DNA of 64,000 nucleotides from a virus. The notes under the pieces were generated by a model. The model worked only from the letters and a program-made list of their open reading frames with translations, did not search any database and was not told the DNA's origin. The stretch is taken from IMG/VR virus record IMGVR_UViG_3300032770_000013, positions 31,989 to 95,988 of that record. One strand, given 5' to 3'. This document shows, one piece after another, positions 9,563-63,930 of this stretch; position 1 is the first letter of the stretch, and each line of letters begins with the position of its first letter. Made by a program: the position numbers and the translations under genes.

Positions 9563-9958
9563 GTCGGGAGCGGGAATCCTCATTGCGATGTCTTGATCTC
9601 TGACTATGCGGCAAAGTTGCCCGTTCACCACGATTTTTCTGCCGTCTACCGTATGAAGCGCAACCCAGTCTCCCGGCGAAACGGAATCGGGTCCGAAATC
9701 ATATTGATCGTCGGATTTGAAAGCCGAATGGCCCAGCATCAGGACGCAGGCCGCCTTGCCTTGGAACTCGTCTTCTTTGATCGTGACGTCGGCCAAATGA
9801 ATCCCAGATTTGGTAACTTTCGGCCGCTCATAGATGCCGACAAGGACGCGATTCCCAAACAATTCAAAGCCGGGCAAAACGCCTAGCTTCTTCATTCCGA
9901 TCTTGTCGTAAATGACCTTTCGCGGATCGTCCTTCGCCTGCATTTCCATATAAGGCAT
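9551..9958 (-). CDS. GroES-like co-chaperonin
   Basis: 135 aa from ATG 9958. FGNRVLVGIYERP, then TKSGIHLAD, then GKAACVLMLG, then VSPGDWVALHTVDG and a C-terminal DQDIAMRI follow the Cpn10 pattern: beta-barrel start, mobile loop with a G-I-x-L element, then GDxV. A phage GroES analogue would pair with host GroEL to fold virion proteins, as T4 gp31 does. No GroEL gene is in the window. Its stop overlaps the end of the opposing HNH gene by 12 nt. Confidence 0.7.
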   Translation of the reverse strand: MPYMEMQAKDDPRKVIYDKIGMKKLGVLPGFELFGNRVLVGIYERPKVTKSGIHLADVTIKEDEFQGKAACVLMLGHSAFKSDDQYDFGPDSVSPGDWVALHTVDGRKIVVNGQLCRIVRDQDIAMRIPAPDLIF

Positions 9959-9971
9959 TGTGGCGTGTTCC

Positions 9972-10457
9972 TTATTTCTTCGGTCCAAAGACCAATGTGA
10001 AAACGGCTGGCGGACCTTCGTATGCTTTCGTCTTGATGCCAGTAGCCGACGTCAGAGCAGCACAGAGAAATGCGCCGTCGCAGGATAATCCTGTACCAAT
10101 CGGAATGTCGCGGTAAAGGAAACAATGGCTGAGCAGGTGCGCTTTCCACCCCGCTTCATTTAGCGCATCGACAATGTCCTCAGCCAATGGTCGGCAATCG
10201 GCATTGTCGCATTCAACCTTCACTTCCTTGCTTGCCGTGACGCCTTTAAGCGTCGCCACAAACTTAGCATATTGGTTGTCGTTCAGTTCGTACCAATGCC
10301 ATTTCCTGTAGCGTTCAAGTTGGCGGTTATTGGATTGGATGGTCGTCATGTTCGACGGAAGATAATAAGCGCCGTTCTTGTCGCTGATCCAGTCATCGGC
10401 AAACGCCGAGCTAACGAGCACGGTGACGAGTAATGCTACGCCGAGAAACGCCCTCAT
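9972..10457 (-). CDS. Exported protein, unknown
   Basis: 161 aa with a clear signal peptide (MRAFLGVALLVTVLVSSAFA, cleavage after AFA), so periplasmic in the host. The mature part holds four cysteines in a CDNADCRP...HCFLY...SCDGAFLC arrangement and no known motif. ATG 10457 is chosen because it begins the signal peptide. Sits among virion genes but is likely host-directed. Confidence 0.7.
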   Translation of the reverse strand: MRAFLGVALLVTVLVSSAFADDWISDKNGAYYLPSNMTTIQSNNRQLERYRKWHWYELNDNQYAKFVATLKGVTASKEVKVECDNADCRPLAEDIVDALNEAGWKAHLLSHCFLYRDIPIGTGLSCDGAFLCAALTSATGIKTKAYEGPPAVFTLVFGPKK

Positions 10458-10461
10458 CCGG

Positions 10462-10686
10462 CTACCCTCTTTGATCTGAAATTGTCTCATAAAGCGTGCC
10501 GGCAATATCATCGCATTTCTGCATGATGACGTTGCAAGCCTCGATAAATCCTACCTGCCCGCGATAGGCCGGATAATCCTCAGCCGCACCTTGGGCAAGT
10601 GAAACCATCCGTTCATCAATCAACTCCAACAAAATCGGATAGAGTTGCCGATAGAACGGATCGTGGATATCTCGCGGACCAGCCAA
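10462..10686 (-). CDS. Small phage protein, unknown
   Basis: 74 aa, helical, with no cysteines in motif spacing except C-N-V-I-M-Q-K-C. Two nt separate its ATG from the stop of the Gly/Pro-rich gene upstream, so it is co-transcribed with the virion genes. Not recognised. Confidence 0.6.
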   Translation of the reverse strand: MAGPRDIHDPFYRQLYPILLELIDERMVSLAQGAAEDYPAYRGQVGFIEACNVIMQKCDDIAGTLYETISDQRG

Positions 10687-10688
10687 GA

Positions 10689-11567
10689 TTACACCGCTTG
10701 CGCTTTGCCGGCCCCTTTGGGCTTCTCGCCGATCTTCTCCAATCTGCCCTCACCCGAAACAGCGCCAGCAGTCATGTGATGCTTCTGGCTCGGCAAGCGA
10801 CCCTTCGGACCAGTGACGCCCTCGACATGGCCGCCCATGGCGCGACCTTCGATCGGCATCTTCTCGGCCTTGTTTGACCGGATCAAGCCTTCTTGCTTGA
10901 GCGTTTTCATAATCAACTGCTTGTCTTGGAGTTCGTCCGGGTGGTTGACCTTACCCCCATGCTTCCGCGGAGGCACGACCCCCGGAGGCACCGCACCGGG
11001 CGCCATCATCGGCCGAGCCATCGCGCCAGGAGGCATCCCAGCGGCCCCCGGAGGCATCATGGGAGGCGGTGGTCCACCAGCCGGTGGAACCATAGGTCCG
11101 CCCGGAGGAACGACAGGCGGCGGCCTCATGCCCATTGGACCGCCTCCGCCTTGGGGTGCAACGATCACATTTACATGCGTCGAGCCCTTATGCTTCGTCC
11201 GACCGCCGCGGGCACGGTTGGCCTGAGACTGATTGAGATTGGCTTCCTCGACCGGGGAATCCGCCGTTGTCGAGCCGCCGCTGTCCCGGTGATGAACCTT
11301 GCCGCCCCGGGCCCGCTTGACATGGCCGCCGCGCTTTAGGGTAGCCACCGGATTGGCTACCATCTGCTTGCGGCTGGCGCGATCGGCTCGAGAACGCGGG
11401 ACTGTGGCATCCGCGCCAAGCCCTACCGCCTGCTCCGGTCCCTCGCCGCCCTTCATCCGCTCGGATGGGGCGAGGATGTCATTGGCCGGGCTTCCGACAT
11501 ATCCGTCCGTCATCCTGCGCATTTTGGCGTTGTGTGACTCGGTCGATTCCTTCTTATGCGGGTGCAT
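10689..11567 (-). CDS. Gly/Pro/Met-rich virion-block protein
   Basis: 292 aa, basic and low in complexity. Residues about 130-200 are a run of PPGG/PPGA/MMPPG units, flanked by several copies of a K/R-RARGGK-H or R-HGGKVNH element, e.g. KRARGGKVHH, NRARGGRTKH, RKHGGKVNH and RAMGGHVEG. Such short GG-basic repeats occur in phage proteins of unknown role next to portal genes. Likely unstructured or DNA-interacting. Function unknown. Confidence 0.65.
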   Translation of the reverse strand: MHPHKKESTESHNAKMRRMTDGYVGSPANDILAPSERMKGGEGPEQAVGLGADATVPRSRADRASRKQMVANPVATLKRGGHVKRARGGKVHHRDSGGSTTADSPVEEANLNQSQANRARGGRTKHKGSTHVNVIVAPQGGGGPMGMRPPPVVPPGGPMVPPAGGPPPPMMPPGAAGMPPGAMARPMMAPGAVPPGVVPPRKHGGKVNHPDELQDKQLIMKTLKQEGLIRSNKAEKMPIEGRAMGGHVEGVTGPKGRLPSQKHHMTAGAVSGEGRLEKIGEKPKGAGKAQAV

Positions 11568-11585
11568 AGCCTCAGTTCCCTCTTC

Positions 11586-11837
11586 TTACGCCGTTTCGGG
11601 TCTAAGAGGGAATTGGATCAACTTATCGCCAATCCCCTGCATGAAATAAACGTCTGATGCCACAACGGGGCCGCCATTTGGCGCGACCGCCGACAACGCA
11701 GCAAGTACAGATGCTTCAGCTTGCCGAAGATCGACCGGGAAAACCACACGTAAGCCGGAAGTATCCTTGGCCGTCATAGCGCATTCCATGAATGCTAAGA
11801 CAGCCTTGTCCAAGACAGCTCGATCAATCCGAAGCAT
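11586..11837 (-). CDS. Small phage protein, unknown
   Basis: 83 aa, Ala/Val-rich, helical start (LDKAVLAFMECAM), no motif recognised. Separated by 1 nt from the stop of the 46-aa gene upstream. Part of the portal-proximal run of small genes. Confidence 0.6.
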   Translation of the reverse strand: MLRIDRAVLDKAVLAFMECAMTAKDTSGLRVVFPVDLRQAEASVLAALSAVAPNGGPVVASDVYFMQGIGDKLIQFPLRPETA

Positions 11838-11838
11838 G

Positions 11839-11979
11839 TCAGTCCTTTTCCTTTGGCTCTTTCGGTGGAGTTCCGTCGCTCTGCTTGTACGGTGTCGTGA
11901 CTTCCTTCTCGCCCTTCATGGCGCGGTCTAGCCATGCTGGCTTGTGCTTGTACTCGGCGTCTTTCTCGGGATAAGCCAT
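11839..11979 (-). CDS. Very small charged protein
   Basis: 46 aa beginning MAYPEKDAEYKHKPAWL and ending in a Pro/Lys/Glu tail. ATG 11979 overlaps the preceding TGA (TGATG), which supports real translation and this start. Function unknown. Confidence 0.55.
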   Translation of the reverse strand: MAYPEKDAEYKHKPAWLDRAMKGEKEVTTPYKQSDGTPPKEPKEKD

Positions 11980-12228: not shown

Positions 12229-14631
12229 TCATGGAGCCGCAGGCTCTACTGGTTGTGTCGCCAATTGATGCTGACGCTCCAAGGCATTCTGATTGGCCTC
12301 GTGCTGCCGATCCAGATGGCCTTGGATCATTTCGTGGGCCCGGGCAACACCAGCCTGCCTAGCCTCGTGAACCCTGCCAGCATGCGCCTCTGCGGCTTGC
12401 TGCGCGCCCTGATTCGCCTGCGCCCGGTTCGCCGCGGTCGCCAAAGCCAGTTTATGAATGCGCTCCGCCGCCCGATTCTGATTGCTGATACCCAACTCTT
12501 CCCGCGCAGCCTGCTGATCGGCATTGTGGATTACGAGCTCGCGCGCCACCCCAAGTGAGGCAATTTTTTCCTTGCTGGCAATGGTTTGCGTGTCCGTGGC
12601 GGATTTAAGCTGCGCCTCTTTCGCTCTCGTCTGACTATCCGCCAATCGGGCTTCGGCAGCCAACAGCGTAGCTTGGGCAGTTATTGCACTCGGATCTGGC
12701 TGCGCTGCACCGGGCGGCGGAGCGGGCTTAAAGAATCTCTGACTGTCATCCACGCCCATAACCTGAAAGGCCCAGTCGTCGACTTCGTTCAGGTCTAAAT
12801 TCGGATTGGTCATTGCCATCTGCCGCGCGGCCACGACCTTCAGATACCGCTCGGTCTGGCTCGAGGTGTTCGGATCGGCCGCCGGCACCAATTCACAATC
12901 GCTCAATGCCGCAAGGAATAGCTCCCGGTGCCGCTCTTCGGCTTCGTCCTCAGCGTCTACCACTGGCTGCTGTCCGGCTTCGGCAGTCAGTAGAGCCAAT
13001 ACTTTGCTTTTCTTGTTATGCCTCCAAAGGGCCTCTGGGTCTTCCTCCAAGAGGCTCTTGAGCATATCAAATTCAGCCCCTTGCGCCTGATGTAGTCGCT
13101 TATGAACAGCCGACATCAATTTCGTGGCCTGCTCAATCAGAGCAAGCGTAGTGCCCACCGGAGCATCTTGCCGACCCTCTCCGATCTGCAATTCCGCCGT
13201 TCCACCAACGCGCTGCGCTGTGGTGGCAATGTTCTCGATAAGCTGGATGAAAACCGCGCTCGGATCCTTGTACGGCAACGGCATTATCGCCTTGGAAATA
13301 TCGTTTCCGACCGTATCGATCGCCATGCCGCCGCCTGGCGGAATGCGGAACTGGTTGGTTAATTGCTTGGCGAGGGATTTGAGATAGAGAAATCCGGGGA
13401 AGTTGGCGAACATGCCGGCGTCGATCATCAGCCGCCATGCCGCCGTCACAGCCTTGGTGGCATTGCCGAGAACATTCAGCAGGCCGATGCCGTAGAACCC
13501 CAAGCCTGGAATGAAGATGTAGGCGATGATACGATTGACGGCGAGGCAGAACGCATCGTCCTCATCCCAATTGCGGCGGATTTCAAGAATTTTCCGGGCT
13601 TCCTTGTCGATCGTCACCTTGTACGGCAGCGGCAGTCCGGTTTCCTTGCTCTCCAGTTTATGCTCGAAGCCCGGCAGGTCGTACTCGCAATAACACTCGT
13701 AGAGCTCGCGGTCCTGATCGGCGGTGTCGAGATAGGTGGAAGGCGCTATGCCTTGCGTCTGGTCAATCTTGATATCGACCGCATCGCGCGGTGCCGGCGT
13801 TCCCGGAGCGGGCAAGCTGATATCGCGGTAAACGCCCAACAGTTGCATACGCCGCAACACGCTTGGCCGCATCATGACGCGGTGGGTGACTCGGCCAGCA
13901 CCGTCAATATCCGTCGCCGAGTTGCTGACGATTAAATCGTTCGCATCAATCGAGGCGATGACCGGACGTCGCTTGATCGGATCGTGACTGCCCTTCTTGA
14001 AGGAAATCCCGGAGAACCCGAGCATCAGCAGCATTCTATCCGTGTCGGGATAGTATTCTTTCGCTACCTTGGTCAGGTAATGGTTCAAATCCTTTTCGAG
14101 CGCTTGGGCCAGCCGTGCCGATAGCGAGTTCTCCTCGCCATCATTGCGGACCTTGACCGGCCCATCGGACGGCAAAAGCTCGCCGCGGGCATTCGCCTGA
14201 AAGCGCAGGACGGCCTCGAGCAGGAGCGGATGGTCGACGGTGGATACGCCTTCGGCCGGCGTGGCTCCCGAGGCCGCGGCGCCGCGGGGATTCTTGACTT
14301 GGAGGCCGAGCAACGAAATGCCGTTGCTCATATTCTCCAGCCATTCCTGGCGGCTTTGCAGATCTTGCTCGATGCCGAATAGTAGCTTCTCAGCCATGAG
14401 GCTGAGTTCGGCTTCGCTTAGTTCTTCCGCTAGATTGGCCTTAAAGCCCTTGTCTTCTTTGCTTTCTTGCGGAGGCGGACCCCAAGTAATCTCGACATTG
14501 CCGTCAGGAAGCGGGACTTGTACGGTATTGGTCCCGATATCGTAATCAACTGCGTCCGGGTCATCGCTGGAGAGGGCGACAACCACGTCCGACATGGGCA
14601 TAGAGCGATCTAATTGGTAAACATTGCTCAT
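12229..14631 (-). CDS. Portal protein (podovirus type)
   Basis: 800 aa, the length class of large podovirus portals. N-terminal residues 60-120 hold the acidic LAEELSEAELSLMAEKLL helix. The core has RRPVIASIDANDLIVS, the GFYGIGLLNVLG loop, and VGNDISKAIMPLPYKDPS before a long C-terminal Ala/Gln-rich coiled coil (residues about 640-800). It forms the dodecameric ring through which the terminase packages DNA. The TGA of the upstream HNH gene overlaps its ATG. No other gene in the window could be the portal. Confidence 0.85.
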   Translation of the reverse strand: MSNVYQLDRSMPMSDVVVALSSDDPDAVDYDIGTNTVQVPLPDGNVEITWGPPPQESKEDKGFKANLAEELSEAELSLMAEKLLFGIEQDLQSRQEWLENMSNGISLLGLQVKNPRGAAASGATPAEGVSTVDHPLLLEAVLRFQANARGELLPSDGPVKVRNDGEENSLSARLAQALEKDLNHYLTKVAKEYYPDTDRMLLMLGFSGISFKKGSHDPIKRRPVIASIDANDLIVSNSATDIDGAGRVTHRVMMRPSVLRRMQLLGVYRDISLPAPGTPAPRDAVDIKIDQTQGIAPSTYLDTADQDRELYECYCEYDLPGFEHKLESKETGLPLPYKVTIDKEARKILEIRRNWDEDDAFCLAVNRIIAYIFIPGLGFYGIGLLNVLGNATKAVTAAWRLMIDAGMFANFPGFLYLKSLAKQLTNQFRIPPGGGMAIDTVGNDISKAIMPLPYKDPSAVFIQLIENIATTAQRVGGTAELQIGEGRQDAPVGTTLALIEQATKLMSAVHKRLHQAQGAEFDMLKSLLEEDPEALWRHNKKSKVLALLTAEAGQQPVVDAEDEAEERHRELFLAALSDCELVPAADPNTSSQTERYLKVVAARQMAMTNPNLDLNEVDDWAFQVMGVDDSQRFFKPAPPPGAAQPDPSAITAQATLLAAEARLADSQTRAKEAQLKSATDTQTIASKEKIASLGVARELVIHNADQQAAREELGISNQNRAAERIHKLALATAANRAQANQGAQQAAEAHAGRVHEARQAGVARAHEMIQGHLDRQHEANQNALERQHQLATQPVEPAAP

Positions 14632-20392: not shown

Positions 20393-20542
20393 TTACCCGA
20401 CTCCACGCCGCGCCGTTCCGAGGTCAGGATAACGTATTATCTCTTGATGCACGGACAAGTCCACTTCCTCAAGGTTAACGCGCCCAAGCCGATGAGGAAT
20501 AAATCCCCGCCACTCTATCGTGCCTATCCGGTTGTCGCTCAT
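20393..20542 (-). CDS. Stand-alone copy of glycosyltransferase C-terminal domain
   Basis: 49 aa. From residue 9 it aligns with the last 45 residues of the gene at 21597-22784: IEWRGFIPHRLGRVNLEE versus VEWGGFIYAVPHRSGRIYLEE, then HQEIIRYPDL versus HPEIMRYSDL, both ending ARR. ATG 20542 overlaps the TGA of tnpB (ATGA). So TnpB is sandwiched between a full gene and a detached copy of its last domain. This may be a remnant of a paralogue or a functional mini-protein. Confidence 0.65.
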   Translation of the reverse strand: MSDNRIGTIEWRGFIPHRLGRVNLEEVDLSVHQEIIRYPDLGTARRGVG

Positions 20543-21600
20543 TGAGCTACACGTCCCCGGCTTCCCTCAACAGGACCCGCAGCACTACGGGCGAGAATGT
20601 TCTTTGCACTATTGTGGTCACGGTCATGGACCGCACCACATTCATCACAAATCCATTCCCTTATTCGCAACCCTTTTTGACCTTTTGGGCCACTGCGCGC
20701 ACCGCACGCAGAACAGGTTACGGTCGTAAAACTCTCGTTCACTTCCTCATAACCTACTGATTTGTATTTCAGCATGGTACGGAAAGTAGACCAACTAGCA
20801 TCCAGCACGGACTTTGCCATCCGTGTCTGTGCAAGCTGCTTCGCATTGACGTTGCCCACGACGATTAGCGAGTATCGAGCCGCAAGCTCCGTCGAAAGTT
20901 TGTGTAGAAAATCTTGGCGACAGTTTTGGATTTTGATCCACAGACGCCGCGACTTTCGCTGGTTATTGGCGCGCTGAGATTTAGCTATTCGCTGTTCATA
21001 TTGCCGATAATATTGCGGTGCTCCAATCCTGCGGCCATCGCTCAATGTGACGAATGATTTTAGACCGAGATCAATCCCAATAGCTGCATCTCCGCCAATC
21101 CGCTGCTCAACCTCAACATGAAAACAAACATACCAGCGACCCAAGCTATCTTCAACGAAGTAGCCGCCTTTAGCATTCTCAGGAAGCGGTCTGCCGCCTT
21201 CCCAAAATCGATATCTCTTACGAAAATAAGTAATAGTATTGCCTTCAATTTGACGACCTTGATTCTGAAATGGTATCCATCCCAAAGAACGTTTCGCACC
21301 AAAACTTGATCTGAAATTCGGAGCACGTTTAATCTTGTCTCGAGCAACAGCAAACTGCCGACAAACCTCGCCTACACTCTGCTGATTCAAATTCAATATT
21401 TTGCTGACTCCCTTGCAAAGCTTTTGTAGATCATAGTGAGTTGCCCATTTACGAGGCTTCTCACCAGCCCGATAGCGTGCTTGCACGTCAAGTTGTTGAG
21501 CACAGCAGTAATTCCAAACCTGATTAACAGCATAAGCATGTCGCCTCAGCGTCTTTTTGGCTGAGCGATCTTTGATGCGATATTTATAAGTGAGAATCAT
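20539..21600 (-). CDS. tnpB: TnpB RNA-guided nuclease (IS200/IS605 family)
   Basis: 353 aa, the usual TnpB length. An N-terminal HTH-like region (LTYKYRIKDRSAKKTLRRHA) is followed by RuvC-I GIDLGLKSFVTLSDG (catalytic Asp), a bridge segment, then SLIVVGNVNAKQLAQTRMAK at RuvC-II where the usual Glu is absent. A zinc ribbon CSACGARSG...CDECG and RuvC-III HDRDHNSAKNIL follow. No TnpA accompanies it. Its ATG overlaps the preceding stop and its stop overlaps the next ATG, so no obvious left/right ends remain; an omegaRNA would be expected from its 3' end. Confidence 0.9.
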   Translation of the reverse strand: MILTYKYRIKDRSAKKTLRRHAYAVNQVWNYCCAQQLDVQARYRAGEKPRKWATHYDLQKLCKGVSKILNLNQQSVGEVCRQFAVARDKIKRAPNFRSSFGAKRSLGWIPFQNQGRQIEGNTITYFRKRYRFWEGGRPLPENAKGGYFVEDSLGRWYVCFHVEVEQRIGGDAAIGIDLGLKSFVTLSDGRRIGAPQYYRQYEQRIAKSQRANNQRKSRRLWIKIQNCRQDFLHKLSTELAARYSLIVVGNVNAKQLAQTRMAKSVLDASWSTFRTMLKYKSVGYEEVNESFTTVTCSACGARSGPKGQKGLRIREWICDECGAVHDRDHNSAKNILARSAAGPVEGSRGRVAQ

Positions 21601-31968: not shown

Positions 31969-31997
31969 AATATATCCGGGAAATACGAGTATTTCAA
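31969..31997 (-). promoter_or_regulatory. Sigma70-type promoter
   Basis: Leftward: TTGAAA (31992-31997), 17-nt spacer, TATATT (31969-31974); five of six matches in each box. It lies in the 135-nt gap upstream of the gene starting at 31908. Confidence 0.6.
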
Positions 31998-45720: not shown

Positions 45721-48700
45721 ATGTCCATTGCCAATATTACCCCGAAAGACGATTGGCCGCTCCTCCTAAAGGACAAAGTCTCCCGGCTCGCTATCCTCGA
45801 CCGCCGGTATGAGTATGAGAATAACTTTAGCTTGTTCTTGGAGCAGGCGTGGCCGTCAATGGACGGCTCGCCGTATCAAAAATCTTGGGTTCTGCCGGCA
45901 CTATGCGACCACCTCGAGGCGGTCACGACTGGGCATATTAAACGCCTGCTGGTCAATCTGCCGCCAAGGTGCGGCAAGCCCGTTTGTGAGGACGAGTGGG
46001 TCGTTGAACGTGCACGCGGCCGAATTAGGCTCGCCGATATTAAGGTCGGGGACCTCATTCTCACTCATCGCGGTCGTTTCCGTCGGGTGGCTGAAGTCCA
46101 CCTTCAGGGGATTCTCCCAATCACCAAGATTGAAACTTGGTCTGGCCGCGTAGTACGGGCCGCAGCAGATCATCCCTTTTTGACTACGGAAGGCTGGAAA
46201 GAAGTTCGTGAATTGTTGGTAGGAGATTCGCTGGGCTTAGTATCGCCATTGGAGAATTGCGGCAGTGAGACCTTGCGTCCAGAAGAAGCTCGTCTTTTGG
46301 GATATCTAATAGGTGATGGAAGTATCGCTCAAGGTCAGCCAGGCGTAACAACAGCATCCGTAGGTGTGAGTGATGACGTAAAGGCATGTGCGGCAGCAAT
46401 GGGTTGGCACACAAGGGAGAGTTCCACCCAAAGCAACGCTTGGCTCGTCGTAATTAAACAACATGCTGGAACGACCAGAGGGCCTAACAAATCAGGGTGG
46501 AGACAATGGCTTGAATACCATCGACTATATGGAACGACGAGTTATACGAAGCGCGTGCCGCTGGCTGTAATGGGTGCCTCTAAAGAGATAATTGCGGAAT
46601 TTCTAGGGGCCTATTGGTCTTGCGATGGCCATATCACCGGTCGGGGTAAGCGGGGTGATGGGCGGGAACGCGGCGACTGTGTTGTTGGCTGCGACAGTGT
46701 CAGTCGTGATTTAATGCTGGATGTCCAGCATTTACTTCTGCGACTCGGCATTTTCAGTAGAATACGCCAAAGGCGTGCCAAGATAAAAACCAAACGGCAG
46801 GGCGATGAATACATCTCTTGGTCTCTGACACTAAGCCGGACAGATGATGTTGCGAAGTTCGCAAAAAGGATAAAGCTAGCTCACGAGAAAAGGGTGCGTC
46901 TCGAAAGTCTCGTGCATAGGACCGATTTCGATCGAGCTCTTACTGCTGACCAGATTACTTATATTGAACCCTGCGGTACGGCAGTATGCCGATGCTTAAC
47001 GGTGGAAGACGACGCTTCGTTCACAGCCGCTGATTTTGCAGTCCACAATTCCCTGACGACTTCAATCGCGTGGCCAGCTTGGATCTGGGCTAGAGAACAG
47101 CAGACGTTTGTAAGCGGACCTGGCGTCAAGCTATTAACGGCCAGCTACGGCGCTCATCTTTCGTTAGATCATTCAAACAAAACCAGACAATTGATACTCA
47201 GTCCTTGGTATCAGACTCATTGGGCCGACCGCTTTTCGCTGCGGCAAGATACAAATTCAAAATCGCAATTCGCAAATACGAAAGGCGGCGAACGTCAGGC
47301 AACATCGGTCGGAGGGTCATTGCTTGGCCTAGGGGGTATGATTCTTACAGTCGACGACGCCCACAATGTTGAGACAGAAAAAAAGATAGAGACCGATGCA
47401 GACCGCCGCAGGGTCGCAAGTTGGTGGAAGGAATTACATTCAACGCGCCTCAATGATCCGAAACAGGGCGCAATCGTAGTGATAATGCAAAGGCTGCATC
47501 AATGCCTTGTGAAAGGCACGCCTGTCCGAGTGCCTTCGGGTGAAGCAAAAATTGAGTCTCTCAAAGTGGGAGATCAGGTCTACGGATCGAATGGATGGCA
47601 GCAAATATCGCATGTTGGTTCTCGGCGCTATAAAGGTTTTTCGTATGGCGTCAGAGTTTGCGGTCATTACATTACCTCATGGACGACGAATAATCATTTG
47701 TATTTGACCAAACGTGGGTGGGTAAGAGCGGACGAACTTAAGAAAGCAGATTGGGTTTGTTTGCCAATACTGAAACAAAAAGAAACCTTGGATGTTCCAT
47801 GGGAGCCAGTCAAATGGGCACCTCCGCCGCGAGCGCCGACTGGGAACGCAAAGGCAAATCATAAGAGGCAAACCACAATCAATGAAGCTGAACTGCGTGA
47901 GTTGATTGCTCGCGGTCTAACAAATTGTGAGATCGCGAAACTACTTGGCGTTCATCGTAACACAATCCATAACTCAATGTTTTTCTATCGAATTAATCGA
48001 ATGATGGATCGCAATCCCATTTTTGGAGTGGCCCATCTAGATGATCCTGATTTCTGGCGAGTTGTTGGTTTGTGGATTGCTGAGGGCTCGTTTTGTCTTG
48101 GTAGAGGAAAGATTTGCGGAATAAGATTCACATTTGGCTCTCACGAACCTCATTTCGTCGCGTTTGTGAGAAAAATAATGGGACGATATGGCGTTTCCTC
48201 CTACGGTAAGGTTCCGCATCCAAGTTGTCTTGAGGCGAGTTTGTTTTGTTCGCAACTCGCTAGATGGCTGTGCAAGCATTTTGGGCGCGGCGCGCACAAC
48301 AAACGACTTCCATCGTTCGCATTTTCATTGCCAGAGGCTTATCGTCGCCAAATTTTAGAAGGATGGTTGGATGGCGATGGATGTGTTAGACAGGACGGTG
48401 CGCGACGGGGCTCTACTGTCAGCGTCGCGTTAGTACACGATATGCAGCGTTTAGCTCTTGGTCTTGGATTGCGTTGTTTTATATATAAAAGTCGGAGTTA
48501 CGAAACCATAATAAATGGTCAGAAAGTTACGCCTTGTGGCTATCAATTTGAACTTAGATTTGCTTGGCCGCGGCACAAGAATGCCGTTGCTCCCCAAAGA
48601 TCAATTATTGATGGCGGGTTTCTTTGGTCAAAAGTCGCGTCGATTAAGAAAGAGCCGTATAACGGTAAAGTATATGATATAACGACACCTAGCCACGATT

Positions 48701-51036
48701 TTGTTGTTGGCAATAGCACCGTACACAATAGTGACCTTTCGGGCATCATTCTCGATAGCGACGAGGAATGGGTCCACATGTGTGTGCCCATGTCTTTCGA
48801 TGAGCGGCGCCGCAGCGTAACAGTCGTGCTTCCTCAATACGACGATCCAGAACCTTGGCAAGATCCACGAACCTACGACGGCGAGTTAATGTGGCCAGAA
48901 CGGTTCGATGAAAAAGAGGTGCGGAAACTTGAACACCAACTAGGCCCGTACCTCTCAGCCGGTAGGCTCCAACAAATGCCCGTGCCAAAGGGCGGCGGAA
49001 TCATCAAACGCGACTGGTGGCAATTGTGGGACAAGGACGCAGCTGCACTTTACGGCCTTGAATGGAATCCAAACCTTAAAGAGTTTCCACACTTTGAGCT
49101 CGTATATGCCAGCATCGATACCGCATACGGCGAGAAGGACGAGAACAACTACAATGCCATGACGGTATGGGGCGTGTGGTTGGATCGAAACAAAAACCGC
49201 CGACTCATGCTCATGTTCGGATGGGTCAAGCGGCTCCCGCTTCATGGCCGCGTCATTGCGCAAAAACTCGGCGAGGCGAAAATCAACTTCAAGCAACGTC
49301 AGCAGGCCGAATGGGGATTGGTCGAGCTAATCGCCGATACCTGCAAGCGCTACAAAGTTCAGAGATTGTTAATCGAGAATAAAACCCGCGGTCACGACGT
49401 CGCCAATGAACTTGCCCGCTTGTACGCCCGTGATAATTGGGGCGTTGAAATGATTAATCCAGTGAAGGACAAGGTCTCTCGGGTGCACTCAATTGTCCCA
49501 CTTTTTACCGACAATATGATTTGGGCACCAGAGACGCGCTGGTCCGACGAAATAATCTCCCAAGTTGAAGTGTTTCCCAAAGGGGAGTTCGACGATGCCG
49601 TAGATTCGTGCGTCGCTGGCGACACTGGCATTATAACCTCTAACGGAGTAATTCCGATTTCTGAAATTAAAGTTGGTGACTCAGTTTTGACGCACAAAGG
49701 CAGATTTTGCAAAGTCCTGCGAACTTCATCTAGAATCTCGGATCACTACTATAACTTGAAAGCAAGAGGATTAGAGTTAATTCAAATAACCGGAGAACAT
49801 CCGGCGTATGTTATGACAGTTATTTGCCCAGCCACTTCGGAAAAGTTGTGTGGCGGATTTGGTTGGACGCCAGTTCGTGATCTAGCCCCACGATTGCGCT
49901 ATACTTTCCTTCGTGAAGGAAAGACAGTAAATTCGCAAAAGCGTGGCAATCACGATGCCTTGGTTATCCCTAGGTTTAAGGCTTCGCCTCGAAATAACGC
50001 TTTTATTGATCTTGCATCATTTTGGGGTGAAGAAGTTAAGCGTGATGAAAAAAAGATATATAGAGCGTTTCGGTCAAAGGGACGGTTTACAAAAGAAAAT
50101 GTATCAAAAATTAAATTGCTCTGCAAAACTATTGAACAAAAAGAAGTAGCCAAAATGTTTGGTGTTTCTACTGCTATGATAAGTTTGCTAGTTAATGACC
50201 ATATTGGTCCGTCAAGAAGAGCGCCAGCTTACGCCACTGCTCCAAGATATATTGAACTTAATGCTGAAACTGGATGGGTAATGGGGTTATTCGCGGCCGA
50301 AGGATGTGTTTCAAGACACAATATCATATGGGCTTGTGATAAAAATGGGTTAGAAAAAGTGAGAAAATGGGCAAATCGTACCTTCGATAAGAATTTGTTA
50401 ATTAGAAAAGGCGTTGGTTGCTATAAAACTGTTCTGAGCTCGACCTTGGCTGTTCCGCTTTTCGAAGAATTTGGATATTTAGCCGAAAATAAAATCGTTC
50501 CTCAGTGGGCAATGTGTGCTCCTCCAGACTTTATTCGAGGGTTTGTCGACGGATATGTTTACGGTGATGGCAACCATTACAAAAATCGCACCGTTATGAC
50601 TTCAACATCACGATCTTTGTTATGGGGCATCAGACTAATGCTTTCCCAGCTTGGAAAACCCGCATGGCTCAACATAAGCCGGGAAGCTGGCCCTCGCAAA
50701 GTATTTGGAAAAATATCAAATTGCCTGCGGGCTTATAGCTTGGATTATCTTGAAGCACCAAGCCGACAAGCGATTGTTAGCGACGAATACATTGGCACAC
50801 ATATTGAGAGACTCGAAAGAGTGAATGAGCCGATCACTGTCTATAATCTTTCAGTTGATGAGGATGAAAGTTATGTCACGGTCGGCGGAACCTTTCATAA
50901 TTGCTCCCAAGCGATCAACTGGGCCCGCGAGAACGGCATCGTAGAGCGCGCCGACGAGACCAGCGCGAGTCTGCGGGACGAAATGACTTACAAAGGCCAT
51001 CGGGAATCAGTAGCTCAGGATTATGGAGTTGGGTGA
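45721..51036 (+). CDS. terL: Terminase large subunit precursor with three inteins
   Basis: 1771 codons in one open frame. Extein segments are residues 1-86, 444-594, 1004-1296 and 1728-1771 (574 aa joined), the normal TerL length. Joined motifs: Walker A PPRCGK+SLTTS, Walker B ILTVDD (D545/D546), the QRLHQ+SDLSG segment, nuclease Asp in ASIDTAYG (D1133), Glu in LLIENKTRG (E1219) and FDDAVDS+CSQ (D1291-D1295). It drives ATP-dependent DNA packaging into the capsid and cuts the concatemer. Without splicing, the Walker A motif and nuclease site are split. The stop overlaps the next ATG. Confidence 0.93.
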   Translation: MSIANITPKDDWPLLLKDKVSRLAILDRRYEYENNFSLFLEQAWPSMDGSPYQKSWVLPALCDHLEAVTTGHIKRLLVNLPPRCGKPVCEDEWVVERARGRIRLADIKVGDLILTHRGRFRRVAEVHLQGILPITKIETWSGRVVRAAADHPFLTTEGWKEVRELLVGDSLGLVSPLENCGSETLRPEEARLLGYLIGDGSIAQGQPGVTTASVGVSDDVKACAAAMGWHTRESSTQSNAWLVVIKQHAGTTRGPNKSGWRQWLEYHRLYGTTSYTKRVPLAVMGASKEIIAEFLGAYWSCDGHITGRGKRGDGRERGDCVVGCDSVSRDLMLDVQHLLLRLGIFSRIRQRRAKIKTKRQGDEYISWSLTLSRTDDVAKFAKRIKLAHEKRVRLESLVHRTDFDRALTADQITYIEPCGTAVCRCLTVEDDASFTAADFAVHNSLTTSIAWPAWIWAREQQTFVSGPGVKLLTASYGAHLSLDHSNKTRQLILSPWYQTHWADRFSLRQDTNSKSQFANTKGGERQATSVGGSLLGLGGMILTVDDAHNVETEKKIETDADRRRVASWWKELHSTRLNDPKQGAIVVIMQRLHQCLVKGTPVRVPSGEAKIESLKVGDQVYGSNGWQQISHVGSRRYKGFSYGVRVCGHYITSWTTNNHLYLTKRGWVRADELKKADWVCLPILKQKETLDVPWEPVKWAPPPRAPTGNAKANHKRQTTINEAELRELIARGLTNCEIAKLLGVHRNTIHNSMFFYRINRMMDRNPIFGVAHLDDPDFWRVVGLWIAEGSFCLGRGKICGIRFTFGSHEPHFVAFVRKIMGRYGVSSYGKVPHPSCLEASLFCSQLARWLCKHFGRGAHNKRLPSFAFSLPEAYRRQILEGWLDGDGCVRQDGARRGSTVSVALVHDMQRLALGLGLRCFIYKSRSYETIINGQKVTPCGYQFELRFAWPRHKNAVAPQRSIIDGGFLWSKVASIKKEPYNGKVYDITTPSHDFVVGNSTVHNSDLSGIILDSDEEWVHMCVPMSFDERRRSVTVVLPQYDDPEPWQDPRTYDGELMWPERFDEKEVRKLEHQLGPYLSAGRLQQMPVPKGGGIIKRDWWQLWDKDAAALYGLEWNPNLKEFPHFELVYASIDTAYGEKDENNYNAMTVWGVWLDRNKNRRLMLMFGWVKRLPLHGRVIAQKLGEAKINFKQRQQAEWGLVELIADTCKRYKVQRLLIENKTRGHDVANELARLYARDNWGVEMINPVKDKVSRVHSIVPLFTDNMIWAPETRWSDEIISQVEVFPKGEFDDAVDSCVAGDTGIITSNGVIPISEIKVGDSVLTHKGRFCKVLRTSSRISDHYYNLKARGLELIQITGEHPAYVMTVICPATSEKLCGGFGWTPVRDLAPRLRYTFLREGKTVNSQKRGNHDALVIPRFKASPRNNAFIDLASFWGEEVKRDEKKIYRAFRSKGRFTKENVSKIKLLCKTIEQKEVAKMFGVSTAMISLLVNDHIGPSRRAPAYATAPRYIELNAETGWVMGLFAAEGCVSRHNIIWACDKNGLEKVRKWANRTFDKNLLIRKGVGCYKTVLSSTLAVPLFEEFGYLAENKIVPQWAMCAPPDFIRGFVDGYVYGDGNHYKNRTVMTSTSRSLLWGIRLMLSQLGKPAWLNISREAGPRKVFGKISNCLRAYSLDYLEAPSRQAIVSDEYIGTHIERLERVNEPITVYNLSVDEDESYVTVGGTFHNCSQAINWARENGIVERADETSASLRDEMTYKGHRESVAQDYGVG
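45979..47049 (+). other. Intein 1 in TerL (Walker A; class 3-like, LAGLIDADG)
   Basis: Residues 87-443 (357 aa). Excision must start at Pro87 to restore GK-Ser, so the first intein residue is not a nucleophile. Block B has HPFLTTEGW (Trp159), block F CRCLTVEDD (Cys425), the C-terminus is VHN and +1 is Ser: features of class 3 inteins. The homing part carries LLGYLIGDG (192-200) and AYWSCDG (297-303). Splicing start at Cys89 would leave Pro-Val in the P-loop and is less likely. Confidence 0.8.
47503..48729 (+). other. Intein 2 in TerL (post-ATPase segment)
   Basis: Residues 595-1003 (409 aa): Cys1, block B TTNNHLYLT, block F KVYDITTPSHDF, C-terminal VHN, +1 Ser. The LAGLIDADG pair is VVGLWIAEG (781-789) and LEGWLDGDG (878-886). 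An HTH insert (721-755, ELRELIARGLTNCEIAKLLG) precedes the endonuclease part. Exteins join as QRLHQ-SDLSG, the normal TerL sequence. Confidence 0.88.
49609..50901 (+). other. Intein 3 in TerL (nuclease active site)
   Basis: Residues 1297-1727 (431 aa): Cys1 (CVAGDTGI), block B TGEHPAYVMT, block F TVYNLSVDEDESY, C-terminal FHN, +1 Cys. The LAGLIDADG-like pair is MGLFAAEG (1521-1528) and IRGFVDG (1605-1611). An HTH-like insert lies at 1461-1495 (KEVAKMFGVSTAMISLLV). Visibly AT-richer than the exteins, a sign of recent acquisition. Confidence 0.88.
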
Positions 51037-54390: not shown

Positions 54391-55044
54391 TTAGCCTTGT
54401 TCCGGTTGCTTGCGTATCCACTTGTAATCGCCGCTCGCCAGCCGCGTTCGCTTCCAATAAGCATATACGGCCGCTGTGGACAATTTGAAGTGAGCCGCTA
54501 CTTCCGGACCGGTCATCCCCCGGCTTAGCATCCGGCCGGCCTGCTCGACTTTGGCATCGGTCATGATCCGCTTCGGCCCCCACTTCCAACCGTTCGCCCG
54601 CTTAGCCTTGATCGCGGCAATGCCGGCAGTCGTGCGCTGGATAGTGCTCTCGCGCTCGAACTGAGCGAATGACATCATCGTGTTCATGGCGAGACGACCG
54701 GCAGGCGTCGATGTATCAATGTGTTCCGTCAGGCTGCGCAGCTCGACACCCTTTTCTTTGAGAGTCCTGAGCAGTTCATAGAGATCGGGTATCGAGCGCG
54801 TGAGACGGTCCAGACGCCAGACAACCAGCGTGTCACCATCCCGACAGTCCATGATTGCGAACTGCAATGCCTCGCGGCGCTTCATGCTCGCGCCAGATCG
54901 TTTCTCGGTGTGCAGATTGTCCTCAAGCACGCCGGCTTCGCGAAGCGCTTCCTGCTGCATTTCGAGTGATTGATCCTCGGTCGAAACGCGGGCATAACCG
55001 ATCAGCCGACCGCCACTTCCGTTTTTGTCAGACTTTCGGGGCAT
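54391..55044 (-). CDS. Serine recombinase (resolvase/invertase)
   Basis: 217 aa from ATG 55044. Catalytic serine in RLIGYARVSTEDQSLEMQQ, then TLVVWRLDRLTRSIPDLYELL (the conserved LDRLxRS), and the C-terminal HTH SRGMTGPEVAAHFKLSTAAVYAYWKR: full resolvase/invertase architecture. It could resolve dimers, invert a segment or integrate DNA. A divergent palindromic operator lies just upstream (55094-55137). No inverted pair of crossover sites was identified. Confidence 0.9.
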   Translation of the reverse strand: MPRKSDKNGSGGRLIGYARVSTEDQSLEMQQEALREAGVLEDNLHTEKRSGASMKRREALQFAIMDCRDGDTLVVWRLDRLTRSIPDLYELLRTLKEKGVELRSLTEHIDTSTPAGRLAMNTMMSFAQFERESTIQRTTAGIAAIKAKRANGWKWGPKRIMTDAKVEQAGRMLSRGMTGPEVAAHFKLSTAAVYAYWKRTRLASGDYKWIRKQPEQG

Positions 55045-55093
55045 GATGTTGTGATTGCGGCCTTCAGCTAGCAACGCCAAAAATGTAAGCATA

Positions 55094-55137
55094 TCGTACA
55101 GTATGGCTTGACAGCGTGTCAAGCGCAGATTATTTTG
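55094..55137. promoter_or_regulatory. Palindromic operator with divergent promoters
   Basis: A perfect GCTTGACA-GCG-TGTCAAGC palindrome (55107-55125). Rightward: TTGACA (55109-55114), 17 nt, TATTTT (55132-55137). Leftward: TTGACA (complement of 55118-55123), 18 nt, TACGAT (complement of 55094-55099). Each -35 box is half of the palindrome, so one bound protein would shut both directions. Promoter boxes read by eye. Confidence 0.65.
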
Positions 55138-55141
55138 CAGC

Positions 55142-55342
55142 ATGGCAACGAAAACAGCCCTGTTAGGAAAGAGCCGCGAGGAAGCCCGCCGGCTGGCGCT
55201 TTTCGATGCGACCTTTGCCGTCGCAGAGTGCGAAGCCAAGCGCCCGGAACGCAGTCATCGAAATGGCGTTCACTGGAACAAGGGCTATTCGGCGGGCATA
55301 CGCCAGGCGCTCGCTGCGCTGAAGAAGCTGAGAGAGGACTAG
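55142..55342 (+). CDS. Small basic protein
   Basis: 66 aa, MATKTALLGKSREEARRLALF, with a WNKGYSAGIRQALAALKKLRED tail. First gene under the rightward promoter at 55.11 kb. Not recognised. Confidence 0.55.
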   Translation: MATKTALLGKSREEARRLALFDATFAVAECEAKRPERSHRNGVHWNKGYSAGIRQALAALKKLRED

Positions 55343-62407: not shown

Positions 62408-62926
62408 CTATCCCGGAAACAGGATCAACCCGCCCTCGCTTATCAGAATTTGACCGGATTCGGAAATCAGATACGGATGCGGCGGCCACGGTAAAACAGG
62501 AATCGCCGGATTAACCGGTGCCGGCAATGCCGCTCCCGCTGGATACGGAAGGTACTGAATTATCCGCTCCGTCTCTCCATTCTGGTTCGCCCGTAATATC
62601 GCAGGCCCCGCTCCCCACGGCGGATTGTCCGGCGAGTTGTACTCGATGATCCGGACGGTCTGCTCTTCGTAGGAGAAGAAGGGCACGCGAGAATTAAATA
62701 TGGGCGGCGGATCTGGCTCGAGCACAATTGTCCGGAGCTGCTCATTGGGCACATCAAGGCATTCCCAGCAGCGCAGAGAACCAAACTGAAAAATCCGGTT
62801 TCCAGCCCACTCAGATTGAAAATTCATTTCGCGCAGCGGCCACCAACGGCCGCAAAGATCGCATTGGCCGGCTGACTGAGGATTAAGAGCATCGACCTTA
62901 GTATGTTTGCTCATAGGCCGACTCAT
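62408..62926 (-). CDS. Virion protein with zinc-ribbon start
   Basis: 172 aa. GQCDLCGRWWPLREMNFQSEW...LRCWECLDVP is a CxxC...CxxC ribbon; the rest is Pro-rich and ends PYLISESGQILISEGG. Seen in podovirus structural operons as small virion components. Its stop and start abut its neighbours. Confidence 0.6.
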   Translation of the reverse strand: MSRPMSKHTKVDALNPQSAGQCDLCGRWWPLREMNFQSEWAGNRIFQFGSLRCWECLDVPNEQLRTIVLEPDPPPIFNSRVPFFSYEEQTVRIIEYNSPDNPPWGAGPAILRANQNGETERIIQYLPYPAGAALPAPVNPAIPVLPWPPHPYLISESGQILISEGGLILFPG

Positions 62927-63930
62927 GCGGCATTCTCCAAATAAGAGAAGGACAAGCCAGACGTCGTCGGCTTACCACTGCGACATGCTTCGTAAATCAT
63001 CCAAGATGAAAGTCCCGTAGCATGCACGGCCGCACTATTGTTTGCGAAGACCTCTCCTGTATCGAGGCGGATAACTGGATAGCTGCGTTTCTTGGAAAGC
63101 TTATCTTTCCACCCAGTTTTTATTTTCTGACTTTTTTCAATCGCAGCCGCGAGAGCGATTTGTCTTTCTGGCTCTGACAGCGCGCCAAACATAAAAAACA
63201 GGCCGCTATGATGTGTTCGTCCATGGATGCAGATATACGAGACTGTATTGCGCAACAGTCCTAGAGCCTTATCGGCAGCCATTGCACTTGGGTAAACTAT
63301 CCCTGTATTCAGACACGTAACCTGCCGTCCGTTTTTCTTGGCTACCTTTTCAACTCGCGCTCGCTCGGCAGTGAACTTGTGCTGTTTGAAATCAGCGAGA
63401 AGAGCGAATCTCTGGTCTTCGGTCAGATGCTCGCTAGCATACCTAAAGCCTAGACCTGTTCTAGTTAAACCGATGTGTTCACATAGGTAAGAAACTTGTG
63501 GCTTGCTCAAACCATAAGCCCGAGCGGTTGCTCTAATGCTTGGATAGATCTTGCCGTCGTTTAGACACAAGACTGGCTTGCCTGTTTCCTTCGCTCTCGC
63601 CTGAGAAAATTCCCTCTGTTTGATTTTTGAGGTGAATACCAGCCCACCAGATGCGATGTTGTATTCTGGATCGAGCAGGGCAATGAGCCGCTCTTCTTCT
63701 TTGTACATCTCCTCGGACGTCAGCAGTGTAGCTAACGTCGTCCACTCAAAAGCTTCTCGACCATACTTGCGGATTGCATCGTAAAAACGTGGGCAATCAC
63801 GAGCTTTACGTCTGGCGTCCTTGAAATGCTGTTCGGCTCGCGCCTCTCTGCCAAGTCGCGTTGCGCCGATATAGCGCTTGCCGTTTATTTTGTTGGTTGC
63901 CATATAGACAGTGAAAGTGTGTTCTGTCAC
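62923..63930 (-). CDS. GIY-YIG homing endonuclease with three NUMOD1-like repeats
   Basis: 335 aa. N-terminal GIY-YIG: FTVYMATNKINGKRYIGATRLG, YGREAFEWTTLA, EEERLIALLDPEYNIASGG. C-terminal part has three copies of a NUMOD1/IENR1 DNA-binding unit: KPVLCLNDGKIYPSIRATAR, RQVTCLNTGIVYPSAMAADK and YPVIRLDTGEVFANNSAAV, each followed by a GLGFRY-like close. GTG start 63930. Stands between two virion genes, one on the window edge. Confidence 0.9.
   Translation of the reverse strand: MTEHTFTVYMATNKINGKRYIGATRLGREARAEQHFKDARRKARDCPRFYDAIRKYGREAFEWTTLATLLTSEEMYKEEERLIALLDPEYNIASGGLVFTSKIKQREFSQARAKETGKPVLCLNDGKIYPSIRATARAYGLSKPQVSYLCEHIGLTRTGLGFRYASEHLTEDQRFALLADFKQHKFTAERARVEKVAKKNGRQVTCLNTGIVYPSAMAADKALGLLRNTVSYICIHGRTHHSGLFFMFGALSEPERQIALAAAIEKSQKIKTGWKDKLSKKRSYPVIRLDTGEVFANNSAAVHATGLSSWMIYEACRSGKPTTSGLSFSYLENAA

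Follow-up and report, generated by a model that had tools for sequence, protein, structure and literature searches.

A single phage large terminase gene carrying three inteins, probably acquired independently at three conserved sites

Analysis of a 64,000-nucleotide stretch of viral DNA (the window; positions 31,989 to 95,988 of IMG/VR record IMGVR_UViG_3300032770_000013) revealed a phage large terminase (TerL) gene that has very probably been invaded independently by three inteins of three separate site-specific lineages. The terL precursor gene (45721..51036, + strand) is a single open frame of 1771 codons with zero internal stops, and no N is present across the window. The inteins, of 357, 409 and 431 amino acids (aa), account for two-thirds of the gene, and the exteins joined give a TerL of 574 aa (86 + 151 + 293 + 44). 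It should be noted that the triple allele is known from one metagenomic IMG/VR record of 95,988 bp. An initial annotation of the DNA had claimed three complete inteins in this frame and a 574-aa TerL with every motif after their removal. Both claims were borne out, the former by the open frame, the intein and LAGLIDADG domains and the relatives at the same sites, and the latter by the profile match and the invariant catalytic residues of the spliced product described below.

Extein 1 (45721..45978, +; 86 aa) ends at the Walker A sequence PPRCGK (K86), and extein 4 (50902..51036, +) comprises the last 44 aa and the stop; both were delimited by alignment with intein-free TerLs. Extein 2 (47050..47502, +; 151 aa) contains the remaining ATPase domain with the Walker B sequence ILTVDDAH, up to the coupling motif MQRLHQ, and extein 3 (48730..49608, +; 293 aa) contains the end of the ATPase domain and the nuclease residues D367 and E453, up to DDAVDS. 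Alignment of the spliced exteins to TerL profiles, which had been proposed as a check, gave two matches: the 574-aa product was assigned to the TerL family PHROG 38 (phrog_38, E 5e-76), and Pfam Terminase_6C scored 26.9 bits for the spliced and 20.9 bits for the unspliced protein, the cut-off of 22.6 being passed only after splicing. Residues K86, D188, D189, R234, D367, E453, D526 and D529 were invariant in the TerL alignment (A5), and removal of the inteins left intact the residues of both Walker motifs (A and B), of the coupling motif and of the nuclease D/E/D set. The spliced TerL was ∼60% identical to intein-free TerLs, and it aligned without gaps at all three junctions with published phage TerLs and with the intein-free 571-aa TerL L021. 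The TerL alignment revealed neither extra nor missing conserved residues at any junction, which was one of the points on which the initial annotation had stated that its reading could fail. A phmmer search of the PDB with the spliced TerL gave zero matches; with a profile, nothing beyond a weak similarity to T7-type DNA maturase B/terminase was obtained.

Intein boundaries were set by the terminal His-Asn with a +1 Ser or Cys, the start pattern of block A and the agreement of the flanks, once joined, with TerLs that lack inteins. Site A lies in Walker A, directly after the invariant lysine (K86|S87); site C lies in the coupling motif MQRLHQ|SD, between the invariant R234 and D239 and in the interior of the ATPase domain; and site D follows S530, one residue beyond the last nuclease aspartate, D529. 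Other sites are occupied in relatives, namely site B, just ahead of the Walker B aspartates (L022, L058, L110, L129 and L159), and a fifth site in the nuclease motif EQEPG|SGG (L189 and L204). Thus, the insertions are placed at conserved motifs, as had been proposed, and two of them were located correctly at the outset (inside the Walker A P-loop and beside the last nuclease aspartate), whereas the middle one, previously placed between the two domains, is in the ATPase coupling motif. The junction alignments also agreed with the boundaries inferred at that time, among them the atypical start of intein 1 at a proline (Pro1). A start of this intein at Cys89 was rejected because two surplus residues (PV) would stay in Walker A, and intein 1 was therefore taken to begin at Pro87. 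Insertions of a non-intein type were also rejected, since splice motifs and intein domains are present.

Intein 2 (47503..48729, +; 409 aa, aa 595-1003) occupies site C, with Cys1, a C-terminal His-Asn and a +1 Ser. It matched Pfam Intein_splicing over the cut-off (E 3e-10) and LAGLIDADG_3 (E 5e-8). Its LAGLIDADG motifs are VVGLWIAEG (48061..48087, +), which is conserved among site C inteins, and ILEGWLDGDG (48352..48381, +), and a helix-turn-helix is probably present upstream of them (47878..47973, +; Pfam HTH_38, E 7.5e-5, below cut-off). Intein 3 (49609..50901, +; 431 aa, aa 1297-1727) occupies site D, with Cys1, His-Asn and a +1 Cys. It matched LAGLIDADG_3 (E 4e-9) and Hint_2, and Intein_splicing at 15.4 bits, below the cut-off of 35.8. 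It contains the motifs VMGLFAAEG (50278..50304, +) and FVDGYVYGDG (50542..50571, +) and a predicted helix-turn-helix (50131..50193, +), for which HTH_3 scored weakly, under its cut-off, when the full frame was searched, and which is conserved in the L103 intein. The AlphaFold model of intein 3 had a pLDDT of 31 and was left out of the analysis. The acidic LAGLIDADG residues are found in AEG and GDG in both inteins. Cys1, the block B pattern TxxH (TNNH and TGEH, respectively) and the junctions HN|S and HN|C give inteins 2 and 3 the appearance of class 1 inteins.

Intein 1 (45979..47049, +; 357 aa, aa 87-443) occupies site A and has Pro1, a C-terminal His-Asn and a +1 Ser. Pfam LAGLIDADG_3 (E 1e-21) and Intein_splicing (E 1e-9, over the cut-off) were matched, and acidic residues are present in both LAGLIDADG motifs, LLGYLIGDG (46294..46320, +) and FLGAYWSCDG (46600..46629, +), as GDG and CDG. 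A structural model of modest quality (pLDDT 60) gave the endonuclease-containing inteins (HEN-inteins) TliVMA, PI-SceI and PI-PfuI as the best PDB matches in Foldseek (E 3e-15), followed by class 3 DnaB inteins. Block F, CRCLTVED (46987..47010, +), has Cys339 at F:4, in the alignment column that holds the block-F Asp in class 1 inteins of solved structure. The class 3 inteins in the literature have a WCT triplet of Trp B:12, Cys F:4 and Thr G:5, and departures from its Thr or Trp are rare (PMC7891396, PMC3196547). Intein 1 shares with them the absence of a nucleophile at residue 1 and the cysteine at F:4, and differs in having Phe67 in place of Trp B:12 and Val355 in place of Thr G:5. The class 3 mycobacteriophage inteins Fenn and Gaia, unlike intein 1, carry W-C-T.

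Intein 1 is a member of a well-supported clade with a Pro, Asp or Glu start and a block-F cysteine, without the WCT Trp and Thr. Among 21 members, intein 1 included, the first residue is Pro in 18, Asp in two and Glu in one; F:4 is Cys and G:5 is Val in all 21, and Trp occurs at B:12 in none, this position being Phe with some Tyr, His and Ile. Conservation of the F:4 Cys is partly inherent in the search pattern; the same cysteine was also present in six relatives found via another pattern (L183, L184, L192, L194, L199 and L203). Phylogenetic analysis placed 19 F-C-V inteins in one clade (support 99/98), with the WCT clade alongside (100/100). In the same tree the class 1 intein P1201 was placed with the F-C-V inteins at 87/65, and a joint clade of F-C-V and WCT inteins, with a p-AU of 0.15, was not rejected. 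We tentatively suggest, at slightly less than even likelihood, that intein 1 belongs to a separate lineage which might splice via a class-3-type block-F nucleophile with another supporting triad. If so, class-3-type chemistry would either tolerate the absence of WCT or have re-evolved without this triplet, and the window terL would encode a single precursor polypeptide needing both splicing chemistries. The Pro1/F-C-V clade makes it testable whether WCT is needed in class 3 splicing and whether that splicing has one origin or more. The clade (L177-L204) occupies site A and the EQEPG site; L193 and L199 are mini-inteins, and in members of the phiCbK type the LAGLIDADG motifs have decayed. At EQEPG|SGG, in the nuclease domain, L189 and L204 contain Pro1 inteins of this clade, which represents a second TerL site.

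A search of other phages for alleles with one, two or three inteins, also proposed by the initial annotation, identified singles and two doubles, with the window TerL as the sole triple among the intein-bearing TerLs retrieved. Among 119 distinct TerLs covering the whole model (from TerL-baited searches plus a site D bait), seven had one intein and none had more, and intein- or junction-baited searches yielded further TerLs, of which two were doubles, L105 (A and C) and L204 (A plus the EQEPG site), and all others singles. This survey was shaped by the search patterns, and the counts are not frequency estimates. Scans of viral contigs with single sequences of inteins 1 and 2 gave nothing; alignment and junction-pattern scans then gave the relatives. 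The Walker A site of L204 holds a Cys1 mini-intein, which makes this TerL a double. An intein-like insertion with the terminus THN|T was observed at the P-loop GKFGTGK|A of a non-TerL protein (L205).

The window TerL belongs to a clade of TerLs 54-61% identical, in which empty alleles (L111, L113, L021, L115 and L118) occur together with A-only (L177, extein identity 60%), B-only (L110 and L022), D-only (L103) and A+C+D (window) alleles; none of the relatives retrieved from this clade combined two or all three of the window's sites in one TerL. Such a set of alleles (empty, A, B, D and A+C+D) could be used for homing and competition assays. The genome contigs searched yielded no TerL of this clade, and a host was therefore not assigned. 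A presence/absence pair was found in the near-identical TerLs L105 (A and C) and L109 (C only): the former contains an additional 1050 nt, in frame, at PPGTTK|T (site A), with flanks 96-100% identical. More insertions distinguish the two contigs downstream (∼9743-11859 of the L105 reverse complement).

For each window intein, the nearest relatives were inteins from the corresponding TerL site of other phages and not the other two inteins of its own gene. The intein tree was grouped by insertion site, with one clade per site (an equally low value was obtained in 0 of 200 shuffles), and on the extein tree intein occupancy was scattered. Intein 1 was 52% identical to the site A intein of L177; its identity was 48% to the L178 intein (exteins 36%) and 46% to the L180 intein (exteins 27%), and intein 2 was 50% identical to the site C intein of L106 (exteins 37%). 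The sequences of conserved exteins should evolve at a lower rate than those of inteins. Therefore, the excess of intein over extein identity in the L106 and L180 pairs points to lateral movement of inteins 1 and 2. The similarity between intein 3 and its full-length homologue at site D, the L103 intein (57%, exteins 56%), is compatible with transfer as well as with descent. At site D, the +1 position holds Cys in the two alleles with an intein and Ala, Val or Thr in those without, a pattern expected of a residue that travels with the intein. We also considered that two or three inteins were gained together by one gene-conversion event from a multi-intein phage, an idea favored by the co-occurrence of A and C in the L105 TerL. 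However, the A and C inteins of L105 are just 32% and 36% identical to those of the window, a same-site relative is carried alone for each intein (L177 for A, L106 for C and L103 for D), and haloarchaeal double MCM inteins homed poorly together (PMC10643990), all of which make a joint arrival unlikely and favor independent invasion.

With regard to mechanism, we propose that each intein combines a HINT splicing domain with a LAGLIDADG homing endonuclease in which both acidic motif residues are kept, to which inteins 2 and 3 would add the probable helix-turn-helix. Upon co-infection, each endonuclease would cleave the intein-free terL of the other phage at a conserved target specific to that endonuclease, and repair of the cut allele would copy the intein in. 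The 1771-aa precursor would then excise all three inteins to yield the 574-aa TerL, with Cys1 as the nucleophile of inteins 2 and 3 (class 1) and the block-F cysteine as the first nucleophile of intein 1 (class 3 type), the latter being proposed because residue 1 is a proline. If intein 1 were not excised, the Walker A site would stay split and packaging should fail. With the Walker A Lys and Ser 357 residues apart in the precursor, it is sound to infer that the phage would need three splicing events. We likewise infer splicing, homing activity and loss of function of the unspliced protein.

Absence of the WCT Trp and Thr from intein 1 and the weak splicing-domain score of intein 3 might suggest that at least one intein no longer splices and that the gene is decaying while another TerL packages the DNA. 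This appears very unlikely, as the 1771 codons are stop-free, the extein motifs are all kept, His-Asn and the +1 nucleophile are intact in all three inteins and the F-C-V pattern is common to the entire intein 1 clade. Even more improbable, to the point of being almost negligible, is an assembly chimera or sequence artefact: the allele comes from one metagenomic record, but its frame is unbroken over six junctions, each precisely at a splice site found in independent contigs. On the other hand, the inteins might be retained as sensors, conditional splicing timing the activation of TerL, and thus not be solely selfish. Such a role was proposed for the two TerL inteins of cyanophage Mic1 by its authors (PMC7156551); in addition, intein 1 has a cysteine as its predicted nucleophile, and a DnaB intein of mycobacterial origin has been reported to act as a sensor of oxidative stress (PMC6195587). 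However, close relatives are intein-free, occupancy is patchy and site-specific as for homing elements, and endonuclease motifs are kept in all three inteins, so that we consider this role improbable.

Among mycobacteriophage proteins, TerL is the one that most often hosts inteins (PMC5050341). The inteins described there (TerL1-a to -e, TerL6-f and Pham3880-g), for several of which splicing was demonstrated and for two of which cleavage was, occupy the P-loop (a and b), Walker B (e) and the coupling C-motif (f), but unlike those of the window they are confined to the ATPase domain, and no triple was reported (PMC5050341). The TerL intein of Caulobacter phage phiCbK (P131-N471) resembles intein 1 in its Walker A K|S site, proline as the first residue, block-F Cys, F-C-V pattern and membership of the same clade, and its Pro131 was already remarked on by the authors (PMC3556154); it differs in being a single intein with degenerate LAGLIDADG motifs, and is ∼32% identical. 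Multiple inteins have been reported in the TerL of cyanophage Mic1, one in the ATPase and one in the nuclease domain, although these are two in number and cysteine starts were reported (PMC7156551). The TerL of the Delta crAss-like phage OBYQ01000140 is likewise a multi-intein single frame, but with two inteins described as the Hint-Hop type and with recoded TAG codons (PMC7886860). Three or four inteins per gene are known from Haloquadratum walsbyi polB, Methanococcus jannaschii RFC and Trichodesmium ribonucleotide reductase (PMC10643990, PMC1635734), which are cellular replication genes, whereas the host gene in the window encodes a phage packaging motor. Considering the two-intein TerLs, the Pro1 site of phiCbK and the other multi-intein genes, the triple TerL is an extreme case of something already on record. 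No three-intein TerL was found in the open-licence part of the literature, which was the part searched. The window terL is the most intein-laden terminase found (the published maximum was two in the literature searched) and provides a naturally occurring case in which the sharing of one essential gene by several homing elements can be tested.

Several other genes of the window were also observed. A free-standing homing endonuclease gene of the GIY-YIG/HNH type is located at 62923-63930 (-) (phrog_314, E 6e-23), an IS-type transposase gene at 20539-21600 (-) (phrog_506, E 1e-64) and a serine recombinase/DNA invertase-like gene at 54391-55239 (-) (phrog_125, E 2.5e-58). The portal gene (12229-14631, -), which usually adjoins terL, is ∼31 kb from terL (45721-51036, +) and on the opposite strand.
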